A program made the position numbers and the translations under genes. The notes under the pieces were generated by a model. It saw only the letters and a program-made list of their open reading frames with translations. It ran no database searches and had not been told where the DNA came from. Shown here piece by piece: positions 15,651 through 55,437 of a stretch of 64,000 nt of DNA. Source of the stretch: Kineosporiaceae bacterium (GTDB taxonomy: Bacteria > Actinomycetota > Actinomycetes > Actinomycetales > Kineosporiaceae); the NCBI GenBank assembly GCA_016794595.1, contig JAEUJN010000041.1:1-64000 (forward strand). Reading direction: 5' to 3'. Numbering within the stretch: position 1 is the stretch's first letter; each line of letters starts with the position of its first letter.

Positions 15651-16339
15651 TGGATATCGTTCGGCTGGAAGCGAATTGGGCCGTGATCAGGGCGGAGCTG
15701 GAGGCTCCCCGGCCGCGGCTTCTGGAGCGGACCCTGCGTCGTCTGGGCATTCCGGCGGCGGCCACCCGGCTGGTGGTGGCCACGCCTGCGTTGCGGCGGG
15801 CCTGGCTGGCGGCGGTGGCCGTGGTCGTCCTGTTGGGGATCGGGGCTGCCCAGCCCGATGATCCCGGCAGCTTGTGGACCTTCCTGGTGCTCACCCCGAT
15901 CCTGCCGGTGCTGGGCGTGGCACTCGCCTACGGGCCGGCCTCGGATCCGATGTACGAGGCGCAACTCGCCACCCCGATGCAGGGATTGCGCCTGCTGGCG
16001 GTGCGGGCGCTGGTGGTGCAGGTGGTGGCGGTGGCGGTGGGCGGCGCGGTCGCCCTGCTCACCCCCAGCATCCGCCCGATGGCTCTCGCCTGGCTGCTGC
16101 CCGGCCTGGCACTGACCGCCGCCATGGTCGCGGGCATGAGTGCCCTGACCCCTCGTCGCGCTGCGGCGTCGACAGCCGTCGCATGGGTGCTGGGCGTGGT
16201 GCTCACGGGTGCCGTGACCTCGGATCAGCTCGCGGCCTTCGCCCCCGGAGGCCAGCTCGTGATGCTGGTCGTGGGGCTGGTGGCGATGCTGCTCGCCTAC
16301 CGCCGCCGGGACCGGTTCGATCACCTGGCGCTGACATGA
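15650..16339 (+). CDS. Six-helix membrane protein, probable ABC permease and/or sigma partner
   Basis: A 229-residue protein with an N-terminal cytosolic stretch of about 45 residues and about six hydrophobic helices ending in YRRRDRFDHL. It lies between an ECF sigma gene and an ABC ATPase gene with 1-bp and 4-bp overlaps, so it is the natural membrane partner of the ATPase and may also restrain the sigma factor. The Cys/His set of a zf-HC2 anti-sigma factor is absent. No enzymatic motif seen. Confidence 0.7.
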   Translation: MDIVRLEANWAVIRAELEAPRPRLLERTLRRLGIPAAATRLVVATPALRRAWLAAVAVVVLLGIGAAQPDDPGSLWTFLVLTPILPVLGVALAYGPASDPMYEAQLATPMQGLRLLAVRALVVQVVAVAVGGAVALLTPSIRPMALAWLLPGLALTAAMVAGMSALTPRRAAASTAVAWVLGVVLTGAVTSDQLAAFAPGGQLVMLVVGLVAMLLAYRRRDRFDHLALT

Positions 16340-17202
16340 CCGCCGCCCAGCTGACCGCCCGGGCTGTCGGCGTCCGGGCCTCGAACCGTGTGCTGCTCGA
16401 CGGCGTCGACCTGCGGGTGACCGGTGGGGTGACCGCCGTGCTCGGTCCCAACGGGTCGGGCAAGTCCACCCTGGTGCGCTGCCTCGCCACCGTTCTGGCG
16501 CCCACCACCGGCGAGGTGACCATCGACGGACTGCACCCTGGCCGCGAGGTGGAACGGATCGAGATCAGGCGACGGCTCGGCTATCTGCCTCAGGACGTCG
16601 GCGTGGCCCGCGGTGCGCGAGTCTTCGACACGGTGGAGTACCTGGCCGTTCTCAAGGGAATGACCCACGACCGCGGACGCCGCGCAGCCGTCTTCTCGGT
16701 GCTCGACCGAGTGGGCCTGCGGGCACGGGCCGGTTCGCCGATCGAGCAGCTGTCGGGCGGGGAGCGCCGGCGAATGGGTGTGGCTCAGGCGCTGCTCGGT
16801 GAACCTGGGCTGTTGCTGTTCGATGAGCCGACCGCCGGGCTGGACCCTGACGAGCGGGCCAGGTTCCTCGCCCTCGTGCACGAGCGTCGCGGGCGGAGCA
16901 CGGTGGTGATGTCCACGCACCTCGCCGACGAGGCGGCGACTGCCGATCGGGTGCTGGTCCTGCTCGCCGGCCGGGTGGTCTTCGACGGCCCGCCGGCGGC
17001 GCTGGCTGCCCGGGCGGCCGGCCGCGCCTGGCTGGATCCTGGACCGCCTCCAGCCGGCGGCTGGCCGCCGGGACGGGTACGGGCGTTCCGGCAACGCGCC
17101 GATGGCGGGTATCGATGCCTCGGCACTCCTCCCGCCGGTGCCGTGCTCGATGGCCCCACGGTGGAGGACGGCTACCTCCTGCTGGCGTCGACGGACAGGT
17201 AG
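16336..17202 (+). CDS. ABC transporter ATP-binding protein
   Basis: A cytosolic ABC ATPase (288 aa) with Walker A GPNGSGKST, Q-loop YLPQDVG, signature LSGGERRR, Walker B LLLFDEPTAGLDPDE and the switch histidine in MSTHLADE. It looks like the subfamily that pairs with small multi-helix permeases for drug, peptide or lantibiotic export. ATG 16336 overlaps the permease stop (ATGA). The last 70 residues form a variable C-terminal extension. Only one permease gene accompanies it, so a homodimeric membrane part is likely. Confidence 0.9.
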   Translation: MTAAQLTARAVGVRASNRVLLDGVDLRVTGGVTAVLGPNGSGKSTLVRCLATVLAPTTGEVTIDGLHPGREVERIEIRRRLGYLPQDVGVARGARVFDTVEYLAVLKGMTHDRGRRAAVFSVLDRVGLRARAGSPIEQLSGGERRRMGVAQALLGEPGLLLFDEPTAGLDPDERARFLALVHERRGRSTVVMSTHLADEAATADRVLVLLAGRVVFDGPPAALAARAAGRAWLDPGPPPAGGWPPGRVRAFRQRADGGYRCLGTPPAGAVLDGPTVEDGYLLLASTDR

Positions 17203-47083: not shown

Positions 47084-47108
47084 CTGACCTCGCGGGACGA
47101 GAGGTCAG
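47084..47108. terminator. Hairpin between convergent flavodoxin and binding-protein genes
   Basis: CTGACCTC and GAGGTCAG form 8-bp arms around a 9-base loop. The right arm includes the stop codon of the binding-protein gene. Confidence 0.5.
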
Positions 47109-48094
47109 CTCTTGGCGGGCATCCACTTGCGCCACTTCTGCGGATTGGCGTCCAGCCACTTCGCGGCGGCGTCCTCGGGTGACATCTTCTTCGCGGTGAT
47201 GTCGTTCGCCACCTGGTTCTGGTCCTCGTTGGTCCACGAGAAGTTCTGGATCAACGTCGCTGCCGGGCTCCCCGAGTAGGCGAACTCCCGATTGAGGATC
47301 TTGTCCAGGTCGTAGGGCTGGTAGTCGCAGGCCACCGTCTTCGGGTCGGCGTCGCAGCCGGGCGTGTACGGCGGCAGTGGGATGTGCACCAGCTTGACCT
47401 GCGACAGCAGCCACTGGGGTGAGTAGAAGTAGCCGAGCAGCGGGGTGCGCTCGCGCTCGGCGTCCCGGAACGCCTTGATCAGGGCGTCCTCGCTGCCGGC
47501 GTAGACCACGGTGAAGTTCAACCCGAGGTTCTTCAGCAACGCCTCGTCGTTGGTGACGTAGCTCGGGTCGCCGGCCAGGAACTGGCCCTTGCCGCGCGAC
47601 TTCGGCGTGGTGAACAGCTTCCAGTACTGGCGCAGCTGCTTCCAGTCGGTGATGTCGGGGTACTCCTCGACCATCCACGGCGGGACGTACCAGCCGATCA
47701 CCCCTCGGTTGCCGGTCAGCCCGCCCTCGACCGCCACCTGCTCGGTGTCGATGTACTTCTTCTTCAGGTCGTCGTGACCCCAGTTCTCCAGGATGGCGTC
47801 GACCGAGCCGTCGGCCAGGTGTTCCCACGAGGCGGCCTCGGCCTCCGCGCGGACGGCCACGGTGCAGCCGAGTTCCTTCTCCGCCAGGTACTTCACCACG
47901 GCGAGGTTGGCCTCGTAGCCGGCCCAGGGGTTGGCCGCGAGGGTCACCTCGCCGCAGGCTGCCGGCGTCATGCCGGGCGCCGACACCAGGGCAGGCGCGG
48001 TACCGCCGCACCCGGCCAGGGCGAGGGCGCCGGCCATGAGCACTGCCAGCAGTGCGGGCAGCGCGGGCAGCGTGGGCAGGGAACGGGGCCTCAC
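47105..48094 (-). CDS. Glycine betaine/proline-type ABC transporter substrate-binding lipoprotein
   Basis: A 329-residue OpuAC-family binding protein: signal peptide with lipobox LALAGC (Cys29), then VTLAANPWAGYEANLAVVKYLAEKELG, ILENWGHDDLKKKYI and RNFSWTNEDQN-like C-terminal features. Trp residues lining such pockets bind quaternary amines. No permease or ATPase gene is near. The GTG start overlaps the cvnD stop by 4 bp, tying its translation to the conservon, which is unusual. Confidence 0.85.
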   Translation of the reverse strand: MRPRSLPTLPALPALLAVLMAGALALAGCGGTAPALVSAPGMTPAACGEVTLAANPWAGYEANLAVVKYLAEKELGCTVAVRAEAEAASWEHLADGSVDAILENWGHDDLKKKYIDTEQVAVEGGLTGNRGVIGWYVPPWMVEEYPDITDWKQLRQYWKLFTTPKSRGKGQFLAGDPSYVTNDEALLKNLGLNFTVVYAGSEDALIKAFRDAERERTPLLGYFYSPQWLLSQVKLVHIPLPPYTPGCDADPKTVACDYQPYDLDKILNREFAYSGSPAATLIQNFSWTNEDQNQVANDITAKKMSPEDAAAKWLDANPQKWRKWMPAKS

Positions 48095-48687
48095 AGCCGA
48101 ACCTCCTGGTTCTGCCCCGCCAGGGCGCGGGCGAGCACGTTCTCGAGCAGGCAGACCAGCACCTGCTTGACCGACTGCCGATCCCGGGCATCGCAGTCGA
48201 TCACCGGGATGTCGTCACGGACCCCGAGCGCCTCGCGGATCTCGCCGAGGTCGAACCGGGGGACGTCGTCGAACAGGTTGACCGCCACCAGGAACGGGAT
48301 GTCGTGGTCCTCGAAGTAGTCGATCGCGGGGAAGCAGTCCTCGACCCGGGCGGTGTCCAGCAGGATGACCGCCCCCAGGGCCCCCTCGACCAGGTCGTCC
48401 CACAGGAAGGCGTAGCGGTCCTGGCCGGGGGTGCCGAACAGGTAGAGCCGCAGGCTCTCGTCCAGGCTGATCCGGCCGAAGTCGAGGGCCACCGTGGTGC
48501 TGACCTTGCCGGGGACGTTGCGCCGATCGTCGACCCCCTCGGAGGCGTCGGTCATGTCGGCCTCGGTGAACAGCGGCTCCACCTCGGAGATCGCGCCCAC
48601 GAAGGTGGTCTTGCCGACCCCGAAACCCCCACTGATCACGATCTTCACCGAGACCAGGTCGATCAGCTGGTCAGAGTTCACGGACAC
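48091..48687 (-). CDS. cvnD: Conservon GTPase CvnD
   Basis: A 198-residue small Ras/MglA-like GTPase: P-loop SGGFGVGKTTFVGAIS, switch region KVSTTVALDFGRI, FGTPGQDR (DxxG equivalent) and VAVNLFDD (NKxD equivalent). In Streptomyces conservons it joins CvnA-C in a membrane-associated, G-protein-like signalling complex. Overlaps cvnC by 17 bp and the binding-protein gene by 4 bp. Confidence 0.92.
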   Translation of the reverse strand: MSVNSDQLIDLVSVKIVISGGFGVGKTTFVGAISEVEPLFTEADMTDASEGVDDRRNVPGKVSTTVALDFGRISLDESLRLYLFGTPGQDRYAFLWDDLVEGALGAVILLDTARVEDCFPAIDYFEDHDIPFLVAVNLFDDVPRFDLGEIREALGVRDDIPVIDCDARDRQSVKQVLVCLLENVLARALAGQNQEVRL

Positions 48688-49030
48688 GATCCCGGATCCT
48701 TTCGATCAGGCTCACCGACAGGGTGCCGGGCTCGACGGCGGTGACGACCCCGTCCTCGACCAGGTCGGCGACCAGGATGCGCGCCACCCCGATCGGTACC
48801 CCGACGGCCGCCGAGATCTCGGCGACCGAGGTGGGGCGCTGGCAGAGGGTTGCGATCCGGCGCGCCTCGAACCGGATCCCCTGCGGGATCAGGGTGCGGG
48901 CTTGGATCAGGGTCTCGATCCTGAGGCCCTCGCGCGCCGGGCGAGTGCGTCCGCCGGTCAGCAGGAAGGGCCTGATCACCGGCGTCGTCTCGGGATCGTC
49001 GGGCTCCAGCGGGTGCCGGTCGGCGATCAT
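48671..49030 (-). CDS. cvnC: Conservon DUF742 protein CvnC
   Basis: A 119-residue DUF742 protein with a predicted winged-helix-like core: VIRPFLLTGGRTRP at the start and RIATLCQRPTSVAEISAAVGVPIGVARILVADL. The family is found only in conservons and related loci. The ATG overlaps the cvnB stop by 4 bp. Confidence 0.92.
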   Translation of the reverse strand: MIADRHPLEPDDPETTPVIRPFLLTGGRTRPAREGLRIETLIQARTLIPQGIRFEARRIATLCQRPTSVAEISAAVGVPIGVARILVADLVEDGVVTAVEPGTLSVSLIERIRDRVREL

Positions 49031-49464
49031 CGCGGCAGGCGTCGGCGCGACTCGGAGACCAGTGCCGGGGTGAGCAGGGGGCCGAAACGCTCTGCCAGAG
49101 TGGCGGTTTCGTAGCCGATCAGGCCGAGATCGCCATCGCCGTCGGCGACCACGCCGATGCAGCTGCCCCCGGGGATGCTGGTGACCAGAAGGAAGCCGCG
49201 CACCATCTCGATCATGATCAGTTTCAGGCCGGCGAACTCGTAGCGCCGGGCCGCACTGCGTCCCAGGCTGACCAGGCTGGACACGATCGCCGCGAGGTGG
49301 TCGGCGTCCGTGCGGCTCAGGCCGTCCGAGCCGGCGATCAGCAGGCCGTCGGAGGAGACCGCCACGGCCTCGCGGACGCCGTCCGTCGTCCGGACGAAGT
49401 TGCCCAGCATCCAGTTGAAGTCCTGCCCGGTCGCCTGCCCGGTCGTCGATGGACGGATGCTCAT
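49027..49464 (-). CDS. cvnB: Conservon roadblock/LC7 protein CvnB
   Basis: A 145-residue roadblock/LC7 protein (FNWMLGNFVRTTDGVREAVAVSSDGLLIAGSDGL, LGLIGYETATLAERFG), the likely regulator or GAP-like partner of CvnD. ATGA overlap with cvnA and with cvnC on both sides. Confidence 0.92.
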   Translation of the reverse strand: MSIRPSTTGQATGQDFNWMLGNFVRTTDGVREAVAVSSDGLLIAGSDGLSRTDADHLAAIVSSLVSLGRSAARRYEFAGLKLIMIEMVRGFLLVTSIPGGSCIGVVADGDGDLGLIGYETATLAERFGPLLTPALVSESRRRLPR

Positions 49465-52025
49465 GACTCGACCTCCGGCTGGTGCTCTTCCTGGCCCCGG
49501 CGCACGCCGGCGCGCAGGGCGGTGAGCCGGGCACTGACCCCGGATGGGTTGTGGTGGGCCTGGTCCTGGGCCCGCTCGGCGGCGGCCAGATCGAGCACCC
49601 GGACCGAGGGGTCGGCAACCGGCTGGCTCGCCGCTGGTGCCGCGGGCGTCGGCGTCGCCGTACGGGGCCTGCGCTTGGGCAGGCCGTTGCGGGTCCGCTG
49701 GGGATCGCGGGCCGGCTGACCGGACGGCGTGACCTGCCACGCGGTGCGCAGCACGTCGTCCGGGCCGAACCGGATCGTGGCCGCGGGGGGCACCCGCTGC
49801 CACTGCGGCGAGGTCGGCGGGGGAGTGAGTGGGCGCTCGAACAGCGACGCCTCGGTGGGGGCTGTGGGGGCCGAGGTGCCGGCCGCCGCTGGTGCCGCCG
49901 GTGCCTCGGGCGCTGCGGGTGCGACGGGTGCGACGGGTGCGGCCGGTGGCTCGGGCAGCGGAGGCGGGGCGAGGACCGGCTCGACCTCGACGTCCTGGAC
50001 GTCGACCGTCACCACCACGGGCGCCTCGACCTCGTCGGCCGGGGACGCGGCCGGGTCCTCGTCGCGCACCCTGCCCTGCACCGCGGATGCCGGGGCGGCC
50101 GCAGGCAGCGACGGCTGCACGGACAAGGCGTTGCGCGGCAACGTGACCCGCGCGGTGACCCCGACCACCGGTGATGGCAGCAGCTGCACCTCGGCGCCCA
50201 GCTGGCGGGCCAGCTCACCGACCACGAAGTGGCCGAGGAAGCGGGTGGGAGCGGACAGGAAGTCGCCTTCGCCCCGCAGCCGGGAGTTGGCCTGCTGCAG
50301 CTCCTCGGACGTCATGCCGACGCCCTGGTCGGTGACCGCGATCAGATAGCCCTCGGGCAGTTGACGTCCCTGGACCTCGACCTCGCACTCCGGGGGGGAG
50401 AAGGCCAGCCCGTTCTCGATCAGCTCCGACAACAGGTGGGCCACCGCGCCGACCTGCCCCCCGGTGACGAACGCGTCGTCCACCCGGCGCAGGGTCACCC
50501 GGCGGTACTCCTCCACCTCCGAGACCGCGGCCCGGATCACGTCGGCCATCGGCACCGGGGTCGCCCAGGCTCGCGAGTTCGCCGCCCCGACCAGGACCAG
50601 CAGGCTGTCGGCGTTGCGGCGCATGCGGGTTGCCAGGTGGTCGAGCTCGAAAAGGTTCGACAGCGCCTGCGGGTCGATCTCCTCGCTCTCCAGCTGGGTG
50701 ATGAAGCCGAGCTGGCGGCGGATCAGGCCCTGGTTGCGCCGGCCCAGGTTGGTCAGGGACTCGACGGTGCGCTTGCGTTGCAGGGTCTGCTCGATGGCCA
50801 GGTCGTACGCGGCGCTCTGCATCCGGTCGAGGGCGACCGCGACCGACTGGATCTCGACCGATGCGCGGGCCGGAACCTGCACGGGGGCAGGCGGTTCCGG
50901 CGCGTCGTCCCCGCGGCCGGCTTGCACGCTGCGGACGGCGGCCGGCAGCCGTTCGGCGGCCACCTGCTCGGCCTCGGTGGCCAGGGCGGCCAGCGGCCGG
51001 GTGATCGAGCGCGAGGCCAGGATCGCCAGGTAGAGCGAGGCGAGCAGGGTGAGCAGCACCCCGGCCAGCAGGACGGCGAGTCGGGTGATCGCGTCGGTGC
51101 GCAATTCGAAGGCCCGGAACTGGGTTTGGGACCCGATGTGCTGCTGCAACTGGTCCAGGTCGGCCAGCACGGTGGTCAGGCCGGACCACCAGGCCTGGGG
51201 GTTGACCACCAGCGGGCGGCCGTCCGCGCCGTCCACCGCCACCCGCTCGAAGTACTCGGTGGTGCGGGCGGCCCCGGTGCCCAGGCTGAAGTCGAGCGCC
51301 CTGATCTGGGACTCGGTGGCGGAGGCCCGGAACCGGGCGGCGGCTGACTCACGGCCGGCGCGCATGGTGGCGAACTGCACGAACTCGCCCTCGGCGAACC
51401 CTCCGGCCGAGAACACGCCGTTGAGGAACGCCCGCTCCTGGGCGATCGCCTCGGACATGTCCTGCACCGCGGTCAGCGAGGCGACGCCCGCCCGGAGCCG
51501 GTCGTCGTCGGCGTCCTGCAGGCCGAGGTCGGTGCCGCGCAGGCGCGCGATCAGCGAGGTGAAGTAGGTGAACGTGGTGGCGCGCGCGGCGGCGGTGCTG
51601 TCGGTGGCCTCGCGCACGGCGGTCAGGCCGTCGAGCTGGGCCAGGGCGGTGCGGACGGCGGTGTCCCGCGTCCCCTGCCCGCCGACCAGGGCCACCAGCG
51701 AGGCGCGTTCCCGGTCGACCGCTGCCCGGGCAGGGGCCAGTTCGGGGGTGAAGCTGCGGTTGCCGCCCAGGACGGCGCTGGTGATCCCGCGCTCGGTCTG
51801 CAGGGTCTGCACCAGGTCCTGGGTGGCCAGGGTGAGTTCGACCGCACGGGTGGTGGACTCGGCGGTCCGGAAGGCGCGGATCTGCTCGGTCGCCACCACC
51901 GCGAGCAGGATCAGGACGACGGCTGCGGGCAGGGCGAGGATGCGGGCGAGGCGGCTGCCGATACTGCCGCCGCTCAGCGGGCCGCTGTGCCGTCCGCGGC
52001 TCACGAGGGCAGGCCCTCGACGCAT
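49461..52025 (-). CDS. cvnA: Conservon sensor histidine-kinase-like protein CvnA
   Basis: An 854-residue membrane sensor. Order: TM1 (about 26-46), a large extracytoplasmic NIT-like sensing domain containing QTERGITSAVLGGNR, TM2 (LAVLLAGVLLTLLASLYLAILAS), HAMP-like segment, a helical dimerisation region without a canonical phospho-His box, a GHKL ATPase domain (HLLSELIENGLAFSPPE, VTDQGVGM) and a long Pro/Ala-rich tail. Upstream in-frame starts exist at 52112 and 52187; the latter precedes the putative -10 box, so MRRGPALVSRG is preferred. It heads the conservon. Confidence 0.88.
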   Translation of the reverse strand: MRRGPALVSRGRHSGPLSGGSIGSRLARILALPAAVVLILLAVVATEQIRAFRTAESTTRAVELTLATQDLVQTLQTERGITSAVLGGNRSFTPELAPARAAVDRERASLVALVGGQGTRDTAVRTALAQLDGLTAVREATDSTAAARATTFTYFTSLIARLRGTDLGLQDADDDRLRAGVASLTAVQDMSEAIAQERAFLNGVFSAGGFAEGEFVQFATMRAGRESAAARFRASATESQIRALDFSLGTGAARTTEYFERVAVDGADGRPLVVNPQAWWSGLTTVLADLDQLQQHIGSQTQFRAFELRTDAITRLAVLLAGVLLTLLASLYLAILASRSITRPLAALATEAEQVAAERLPAAVRSVQAGRGDDAPEPPAPVQVPARASVEIQSVAVALDRMQSAAYDLAIEQTLQRKRTVESLTNLGRRNQGLIRRQLGFITQLESEEIDPQALSNLFELDHLATRMRRNADSLLVLVGAANSRAWATPVPMADVIRAAVSEVEEYRRVTLRRVDDAFVTGGQVGAVAHLLSELIENGLAFSPPECEVEVQGRQLPEGYLIAVTDQGVGMTSEELQQANSRLRGEGDFLSAPTRFLGHFVVGELARQLGAEVQLLPSPVVGVTARVTLPRNALSVQPSLPAAAPASAVQGRVRDEDPAASPADEVEAPVVVTVDVQDVEVEPVLAPPPLPEPPAAPVAPVAPAAPEAPAAPAAAGTSAPTAPTEASLFERPLTPPPTSPQWQRVPPAATIRFGPDDVLRTAWQVTPSGQPARDPQRTRNGLPKRRPRTATPTPAAPAASQPVADPSVRVLDLAAAERAQDQAHHNPSGVSARLTALRAGVRRGQEEHQPEVES

Positions 52026-53784: not shown

Positions 53785-55437
53785 TCAGCTCCTCGGGGCG
53801 TGCACGATCTGGCCTCGACCGGATCGCTTCGCGTCGTAGAGGCAGCGGTCCCCGGCGTCGAGGAGGTGGTCGACATCTCGCGCCGCACCACTGATCACCC
53901 CGATGCTGAGCCCGACTGTGAGCCCTGGGGCAACCTCGTGCCATGGGTGAGTGGCAACGTGGTCGAGCAGGTCTCGCGCGCGGTCCTCGGCGTCCGGCAG
54001 GCCATGGCTGATCATGAGCAGGAACTCGTCGCCACCGAGCCGGACGGCGAGGTCTGACGGCCTGGTGGCACGGGTCAGGATCGACCCGAGGCGGCGGAGC
54101 ACCTCGTCCCCGGCGGCGTGACCGAAACGGTCGTTGATCAGCTTGAAATGATCGACATCGATCATCAGGAGCGTCAGTCCGTCCGCGGGATCGGCCGTGC
54201 GCAGGCGGGCCAGGTGTCGGTCGTGGGCATGGCGGTTCGCCAGCCCGGTGAGGTGATCCACGTAGGCGCGCTTCGACACACGCTGGTGGTCGAGCAGCGC
54301 CTTCTCGGCGGCGATCTGTCGCCTGGCGCCGGTGACCAGCACCTGACCGAGGTTCCAGCGCACCCGGGAGCTGGCGTCGGCATACCGTCGCCACGTCGCA
54401 CTGGGTGGCTCGGCCGCCGTCGCGATCTCCAACAGGAGGATCTGCAGCCACGACGAATCACGGTCGAGGTGTTGCAGAGCCGACTCGGCGTGAGCCGCCG
54501 CCTGCGCCGCCCGGCCTGCGTCCAGTGCCCGGATCGCACAGCCGGCGTGGATGCACGCTCGGCGACCGTTACGCCGATCGGGCGGCATCCTGCGCAGGAT
54601 CTCCTCGGAGCTCGTTGTCTCGGCATCGCGCGCGATGGCTGCCAGCAGGTAGTCCACTGCATCGAGGTCGTCGATCCACTCCGGGTGTTCGGGCGCGTAA
54701 TCCTCTGCCGCCAGACGCATTCGGCCTGCGGCGACGGTTGTGGCCCGCTCGCGCATGCCGCTGGCCATGAGCGAACAGGCCAGAGGTGCCGCTGCCTCCA
54801 CCTGGTTCAGCACCATGGCCTTTCGGCACATCTCCACGACCGCCAGCAGAGGCTTCGGCCAGGGCAACCGGATCAACTGCTCCAGGTATCCGCAGGCTTC
54901 GACCGCCAACTCCCACATGGCCCGTCGCGTGTAGCCCAGTGCGCACATGACGTAGGCAGCGCAGGCGTGAACGCTGGGGGCTGCATTGTCGGCCAACAGC
55001 GCCATCGCCCGCGCCAGGTCGCGCTCCCCGTCGGCCGAGCCTTCGGCCTCGCTCTCGACGTCGAGGTAGGACCGGTAGGCCCTGGCCGACAACCACAGCG
55101 CAATCAGGCTGTCGTCCTCGGCCAGCCGTGCTGCCTCACCCATCCGGACGAGGTCGGCCGTCCAATCCTCGTCGTAGGAGGCGCTTCCGGCGAACCTCGC
55201 GTAGTGGGCGATCGCGATGACGTCCCACCACTGGTTCAGGGTGGCGAGATCGAGCAGAACGTCGATGTCGTTCTCGCAACGACCCAGCTGCGCACGTTCC
55301 GCGAGTTCGTACCCGTGCACCAGCGCCAGGGCACGCTCTTCCGCCTGGGCCACACAGCACGAATCGGCGTGGATCTGACCTTGCTGAACCCCACGGATCA
55401 GTGGCTCGGTCGCGATTGACGGCGCTGCGCGCCACAT
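53785..55437 (-). CDS. Diguanylate cyclase (GGDEF) with helical N-terminal region
   Basis: A cytosolic 550-residue protein. The first 385 residues are helix-rich (TPR- or HTH-regulator-like superhelix, no TM), then a GGDEF domain from LTGLANRHAHDRH with LMIDVDHFKLINDRFGHAAGDEVLRRL and the active GG(D/E)EF loop LGGDEFLLM (468-472). It should make c-di-GMP from GTP. No I-site RxxD is evident just before GGDEF. The predicted N-terminus (about 22 residues) lies over a 28-bp repeat also found at 56177, so the true start may be downstream, for example near AQAEERALALVHG. Confidence 0.85.
   Translation of the reverse strand: MWRAAPSIATEPLIRGVQQGQIHADSCCVAQAEERALALVHGYELAERAQLGRCENDIDVLLDLATLNQWWDVIAIAHYARFAGSASYDEDWTADLVRMGEAARLAEDDSLIALWLSARAYRSYLDVESEAEGSADGERDLARAMALLADNAAPSVHACAAYVMCALGYTRRAMWELAVEACGYLEQLIRLPWPKPLLAVVEMCRKAMVLNQVEAAAPLACSLMASGMRERATTVAAGRMRLAAEDYAPEHPEWIDDLDAVDYLLAAIARDAETTSSEEILRRMPPDRRNGRRACIHAGCAIRALDAGRAAQAAAHAESALQHLDRDSSWLQILLLEIATAAEPPSATWRRYADASSRVRWNLGQVLVTGARRQIAAEKALLDHQRVSKRAYVDHLTGLANRHAHDRHLARLRTADPADGLTLLMIDVDHFKLINDRFGHAAGDEVLRRLGSILTRATRPSDLAVRLGGDEFLLMISHGLPDAEDRARDLLDHVATHPWHEVAPGLTVGLSIGVISGAARDVDHLLDAGDRCLYDAKRSGRGQIVHAPRS
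55372..55399. repeat. 28-bp direct repeat, copy A (in GGDEF N-terminus)
   Basis: Begins GATCTGACCTTGCTGAACCC and ends CCACGGATC. Identical to 56177-56204, 805 bp away in the same orientation; the two copies flank a region of toxin-antitoxin debris. Confidence 0.95.

Follow-up and report, generated by a model that had tools for sequence, protein, structure and literature searches.

An OpuAC-type solute-binding lipoprotein (SBP) is encoded as the fifth gene of a conservon, cvnABCD, in the 64,000-nucleotide stretch of Kineosporiaceae DNA analyzed here (the window), and the same gene order is conserved across two actinomycete families. We think it reasonably probable that a transporter binding protein has been captured as this conservon's extracytoplasmic receptor and that it serves to sense choline, glycine betaine, or a related compound through the NIT domain of the sensor kinase-like protein CvnA. 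For the ligand, the contact with CvnA, the direction of signaling, and the output alike, we infer the following scheme. An aromatic cage in the lipoprotein, which is anchored outside the membrane, would hold a quaternary amine (choline, glycine betaine, or a similar compound), and the liganded protein would dock onto the NIT domain; CvnA would then alter the nucleotide state of the GTPase CvnD through CvnB and CvnC. The system would likely control how choline or betaine is taken up and broken down, or else a physiological state tied to that nutrient. Conservons are a frequent feature of actinomycete genomes, those of Streptomyces and Mycobacterium among them, and we know of no ligand for any NIT-bearing conservon sensor. 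For one conservon, having its own binding protein with a predictable type of ligand would supply a concrete input that is cheap to test, with the choline/betaine uptake and oxidation genes as its candidate regulon.

The five genes lie on the minus strand in the order cvnA, cvnB, cvnC, cvnD, SBP (Table 1). A first-pass annotation of this DNA had described them as overlapping end to end by 4, 4, 17, and 4 bp in succession, and we recovered exactly these overlaps. Pfam matches and overlaps, together with HMM and tree placement, set the operon among the conservons, and the SBP carries a signal peptide and a lipobox (LALAGC). The inverted repeat at the SBP stop, folded with its flanks, reaches -29.7 kcal/mol (z -1.9) without a T run and may possibly mark the operon's end; terminator and promoter scans returned nothing above chance except this weak hairpin. 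Shortly upstream of the conservon is a gene for a GGDEF diguanylate cyclase (53785-55437).

Table 1. Features of the conservon-SBP operon, in window coordinates
Feature	Position	Strand	Evidence
cvnA, sensor kinase-like, 854 aa	49461..52025	-	Pfam NIT 3.6e-36, HATPase_c 5.5e-9
CvnA extracytoplasmic NIT region, ortholog marker P0004	51051..51893	-	identity 46-56% in SBP-linked orthologs, 31-39% elsewhere
cvnB, roadblock/LC7 protein	49027..49464	-	Robl_LC7 2.2e-18; ATGA overlap (4 bp) with cvnA
cvnC, DUF742 protein	48671..49030	-	DUF742 4.1e-24; ATGA overlap (4 bp) with cvnB
cvnD, small GTPase, P-loop GGFGVGKTT	48091..48687	-	ATP_bind_1 4.7e-23; 17 bp overlap with cvnC
OpuAC-type lipoprotein (SBP), 329 aa, proposed conservon receptor	47105..48094	-	OpuAC E 2.3e-39; GTGA overlap (4 bp) with cvnD
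Inverted repeat CTGACCTC-N9-GAGGTCAG, at SBP stop, between convergent genes	47084..47108	-	weak hairpin

The lipoprotein was also said to have no permease or ATPase partner, and our searches agree: there is no betaine-type permease across the 64 kb, and the sole ABC ATPase match (16336-17202) is distant and generic. With cognate permease and ATPase genes absent nearby, the SBP does not qualify as a component of an ABC importer. The genome has one other OpuAC gene, which sits in a complete IclR-proV-choW-SBP operon on another contig (C10), and the choW gene of that operon encodes the only choW-type permease in the genome. No OpuAC gene lies near any of the genome's other three conservons.

The gene order is widely shared. 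Relatives of the lipoprotein were sought in 84,980 species genomes, which yielded 104, and among the best 80 of these the SBP gene lies directly 3' of cvnD, on the same strand, in 38 gene-called loci including that of the window, all of them from Kineosporiaceae or Micromonosporaceae (prevalence in the latter derives from a contig scan biased toward the SBP). Six further loci from the window's own family and two with transporter genes in between bring the set to 46, of which 44 have the cvnABCD-SBP order. None of 26 control conservons has an SBP beside it, so the linkage is far beyond chance. The first-pass annotation had proposed such a survey, and the 46 loci, which span two families and form a clade, rule out an arrangement that is unique or strain-specific. 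Translational coupling, which it had also claimed, applies to the window, where the SBP start overlaps the cvnD stop, but does not extend to the set as a whole: with genes called heuristically, cvnD and the SBP gene overlap in 15 of the 38 loci and are separated by gaps of 8-260 bp in the other 23. Thus, operon membership is conserved, whereas strict translational coupling is not.

Within the window's own family, orthologs of the CvnA ectodomain (49-56% identity outside the genome itself) and conservon-type SBPs (64-72% identity) are each present in 11 of 13 genomes. These are the identical 11 genomes, and both are missing from the other two, one of which (G436) has neither protein while the other (G015) has a permease-linked SBP only. 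Nine of the 11 loci are contiguous, and two are interrupted by contig ends: in G437, cvnBCD-SBP is contiguous and cvnA lies at the end of another contig, and in G444 the contig breaks at both sides. When the comparison is widened to 395 genomes of the same class, CvnA ectodomains from other families show just 31-39% identity, the conservons examined there have no SBP, and the survey found no close SBP-conservon beyond the window's family. As a side observation, solitary CvnA-type NIT kinases occur in another family (L117, L118, L121) with no recognizable cvnB, cvnC, or cvnD nearby.

The phylogenies of the two partners agree. In the SBP tree, 37 of 38 conservon SBPs fall in one clade (support 99), together with the SBP of L006, a locus whose contig begins immediately ahead of this gene; the exception, from Dactylosporangium (L021), groups with L024, L033, and L035 in the sister clade. 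The SBP-linked conservons likewise form a single clade in a tree of CvnB, CvnC, and CvnD (support 98), indicating one conservon origin, and the first split there comprises L033, L021, and L024, as in the SBP tree. These shared clades and the shared earliest split indicate that conservon and SBP have been inherited together. Partnership of the lipoprotein with a transporter elsewhere had been named as a result that would count against a signaling role; its clade is separate from transporter genes, although paralogs are linked to them. The SBP is also under purifying selection, as judged by dN/dS values of 0.14-0.45 in seven close pairs, which are similar to those of CvnA. The mirror-tree partial correlation between the SBP and the CvnA ectodomain was 0.23, no higher than with CvnB or CvnD; we dropped this signal as support for an SBP-CvnA pairing because it is not specific.

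In regard to what the lipoprotein binds, its AlphaFold2 model (pLDDT 86.5) finds its best PDB match in TmoX (4xz6), followed by DmpX, OpuAC, ChoX, and ProX. The OpuAC domain, the export signal, the modeled betaine-type fold, and the aromatic cage predicted from the alignment place it in the OpuAC family. The TmoX pocket is formed by Trp55, Trp102, Phe106, Glu131, Trp177, Phe220, and Trp222 (PMC8918994), which align in that order with W57, W105, D108, I133, Y179, Y222, and Y224 of the window lipoprotein. Five of these positions (TmoX W55, W102, W177, F220, and W222) carry aromatic residues in nearly every conservon SBP, with Tyr or Phe at 179, so that a cage of the choline/betaine type is retained in the alignment and a ligand of this type is predicted. 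In TmoX, Glu131 hydrogen-bonds trimethylamine N-oxide (TMAO) (PMC8918994). Conservon SBPs have Ile, Val, or Leu at this position (Ile133 in the window), and because of this replacement choline or betaine would fit better, making TMAO the less likely ligand.

A second difference concerns residue 165, a position picked on inspection of the conservon SBPs and examined afterward in tandem second SBPs. Glutamate is found there in 54 of 54 SBPs encoded directly after a permease gene versus 4 of 44 conservon SBPs; it also occurs in 1 of 17 tandem second SBPs, which are mostly from Streptosporangiaceae. A glutamate aligns at this position in TmoX and OpuA, outside the listed TmoX pocket residues, and we suspect that it serves permease docking. 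A paired tree test of Glu165 against permease linkage had too few independent changes for significance, and in five genomes of the family f35, which behaves as Streptosporangiaceae, second SBPs are without this glutamate though no conservon is nearby.

The loss of Glu165 bears on whether the lipoprotein is still a transport component, one that feeds the sole ChoW-type transporter (C10) in trans while the conservon merely controls its expression. We regard this as unlikely, though the least unlikely of the alternatives: the fold and cage are typical of transport SBPs, a complete transporter is present in this genome and in several relatives, and two operons (L008 and L011, both proV-choW-SBP-cvnABCD-SBP) contain a transporter, an SBP, a conservon, and a second SBP. 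However, C10 already encodes an SBP for that transporter, the glutamate that is universal in permease-linked SBPs is lost, and the lipoprotein's clade is separate and always conservon-bound. The earlier suggestion of a sensor rather than a transporter is partly supported. Four findings favor a sensor over a transport part: cage residues persist, Glu165 has disappeared, selection on the SBP is purifying, and the SBP is inherited along with CvnA.

Gene neighborhoods provide a further indication of ligand. Genes for ChoW permease, BetA, BADH, DMGDH, or sox proteins are nearby in 11 of 46 loci versus 1 of 26 controls, the single control having a lone BADH-type aldehyde dehydrogenase match; in the other 35 loci, no choline or betaine genes were found near the SBP-conservon. 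The most extensive case is Rugosimonospora (L033), where cvnABCD-betB-proV-choW-SBP-DMGDH-soxB-soxD-soxA-soxG form one run. Elsewhere, cvnA is adjoined by betB and betA (L007), sox genes lie immediately upstream (L017, L018, L020, and L041), DMGDH-like and GbcA-like genes lie upstream (L025), or, in G437 of the window's own family, the order is cvnBCD-SBP-betA-proV-choW-SBP2. These links to choline/betaine uptake and oxidation point to a quaternary-amine ligand, as the first-pass annotation had proposed, and the predicted class is likely choline/betaine; its alternative of an osmolyte sensor is less supported than a sensor of choline or betaine as nutrients. Separately, Actinoplanes sp. KI2 carries, on one contig, an SBP-conservon (L022) and, roughly 30 kb away, a complete betA-BADH-proV-choW-SBP-sox operon (L043). 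In Streptomyces (L062, L063, L065, L066, and L081), a related SBP gene with no permease follows a sulfatase gene, mostly with an FGE-like gene, and these loci perhaps serve choline sulfate use.

The sister loci also point to the SBP's origin. Rugosimonospora L033, Planosporangium L024 (cvnABCD-permease-SBP), and Dactylosporangium L021 (cvnABCD-SBP) suggest a series of transporter loss, and judging by the tree and the paralogs the change probably ran from transporter-bearing to SBP-only loci. The series also speaks for a rival reading, in which the SBP is a co-transcribed relic or scavenger left after transporter loss, with no signaling role, or else an output of the conservon, and the loosely coupled CvnD-SBP junction in 23 of 38 loci fits with this. 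We nevertheless consider it improbable, as the SBP is kept in 46 loci of two families with an intact cage and dN/dS well below 1, and co-occurs perfectly with the CvnA ectodomain in the window's own family.

A similar recruitment may have occurred separately in Streptosporangiaceae. In 7 of 12 inspected f35 genomes (L202-L208), conservon genes flank a proV-choW-SBP-SBP operon with betA: at one end lie cvnA-type genes in divergent orientation, at the other end conservon genes in convergent orientation, and divergent cvnA-type genes are also found at the named Streptosporangiaceae loci L052, L060, and L075. The conservons flanking the f35 operons belong to a different clade from the SBP-linked ones in the CvnB, CvnC, and CvnD tree, and the association is one of adjacency, not of a single operon. 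At these loci, the second SBP of the choline uptake operon is without glutamate 165.

The receptor model also depends on the CvnA sensor domain. Hydropathy and Pfam place hydrophobic segments near residues 22-52 and 310-341, flanking the NIT domain (70-301), with HATPase_c at 527-631. Modeled with a pLDDT of 91.9, the ectodomain matches the NIT domain of NasR (4akk) at a TM-score of 0.82, so what had been called a NIT-like domain is a true NIT fold, and a non-NIT fold is ruled out. CvnA, which by model resembles nitrate-sensing receptors in fold, also shows little or no variation in Glu-Arg pairs like those predicted to form the nitrate pocket of NasR. As a point against the receptor reading, the intact NIT domain could bind a ligand of its own. 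In a rival reading, CvnA might sense nitrate or nitrite with the lipoprotein incidental or a second input. Alongside the fold and the conserved pairs, nirB-, nirD-, and NarK-type MFS-like genes adjoin the SBP-conservon in Paractinoplanes L013 and L036 and are near it in L015, L019, and L026. However, this gene link is confined to one genus, some NIT domains are reported not to bind nitrate (PMC13343842), and nitrate sensing leaves the conserved SBP unexplained; we judge it the least probable of the readings considered here.

Our preferred reading, a captured receptor for choline or betaine, fits into a broader set of known systems. In the open-licence literature, we found no joint report of a conservon and a substrate-binding protein, although an earlier report elsewhere is possible, and the only such paper naming both conservons and glycine betaine concerns another subject. 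The window conservon has the same cvnA-B-C-D order and domains as Cvn1-13 of Streptomyces coelicolor, and differs from known conservons in that its fifth gene encodes an extracytoplasmic betaine-type SBP. The lipoprotein has the fold and predicted aromatic cage of the ProVWX, ChoXWV, and TmoXWV binding proteins (TmoX 4xz6, ChoX 2reg, ProX 1r9l, and OpuAC), but lacks a cognate permease and ATPase, has lost glutamate 165, and has Ile133 in place of TmoX Glu131.

Transporter-type binding proteins paired with sensor kinases have precedents in AioX-AioS, TorT, and LuxP, which serve as receptors for kinases, AioX being derived from a transporter family (PMC5908839). The window lipoprotein resembles these as a transporter-less SBP whose gene shares an operon with a sensor kinase gene and is inherited along with it, with putative kinase contact. 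It differs in that they belong to other SBP families and that AioS acts via a response regulator, whereas the window co-encodes a Ras-like GTPase. If our reading is correct, part of an ABC importer feeds a Ras-like GTPase pathway.

The reported conservon accessories are CvnE (a P450) and CvnF (a GAF protein), which occur with CvnAs lacking a sensor domain, and CvnF8 stimulates the ATPase and autophosphorylation of CvnA8 (PMC13343842). Like CvnF8 and CvnE, the lipoprotein is encoded directly after cvnD; unlike them, it is an exported SBP with an OpuAC domain and accompanies a NIT-bearing CvnA, and it belongs to neither class. We would give roughly even chances to a combined proposal: that the lipoprotein represents a third accessory class, in which an ABC binding protein was recruited, once its transporter had been lost, as the extracytoplasmic receptor of a Ras-like GTPase pathway; that choline or glycine betaine can be assigned to this conservon as ligand; and that a similar recruitment may have taken place separately in Streptosporangiaceae. 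If so, an extracytoplasmic accessory would be added to the published rule that pairs accessories with sensor-less CvnAs.
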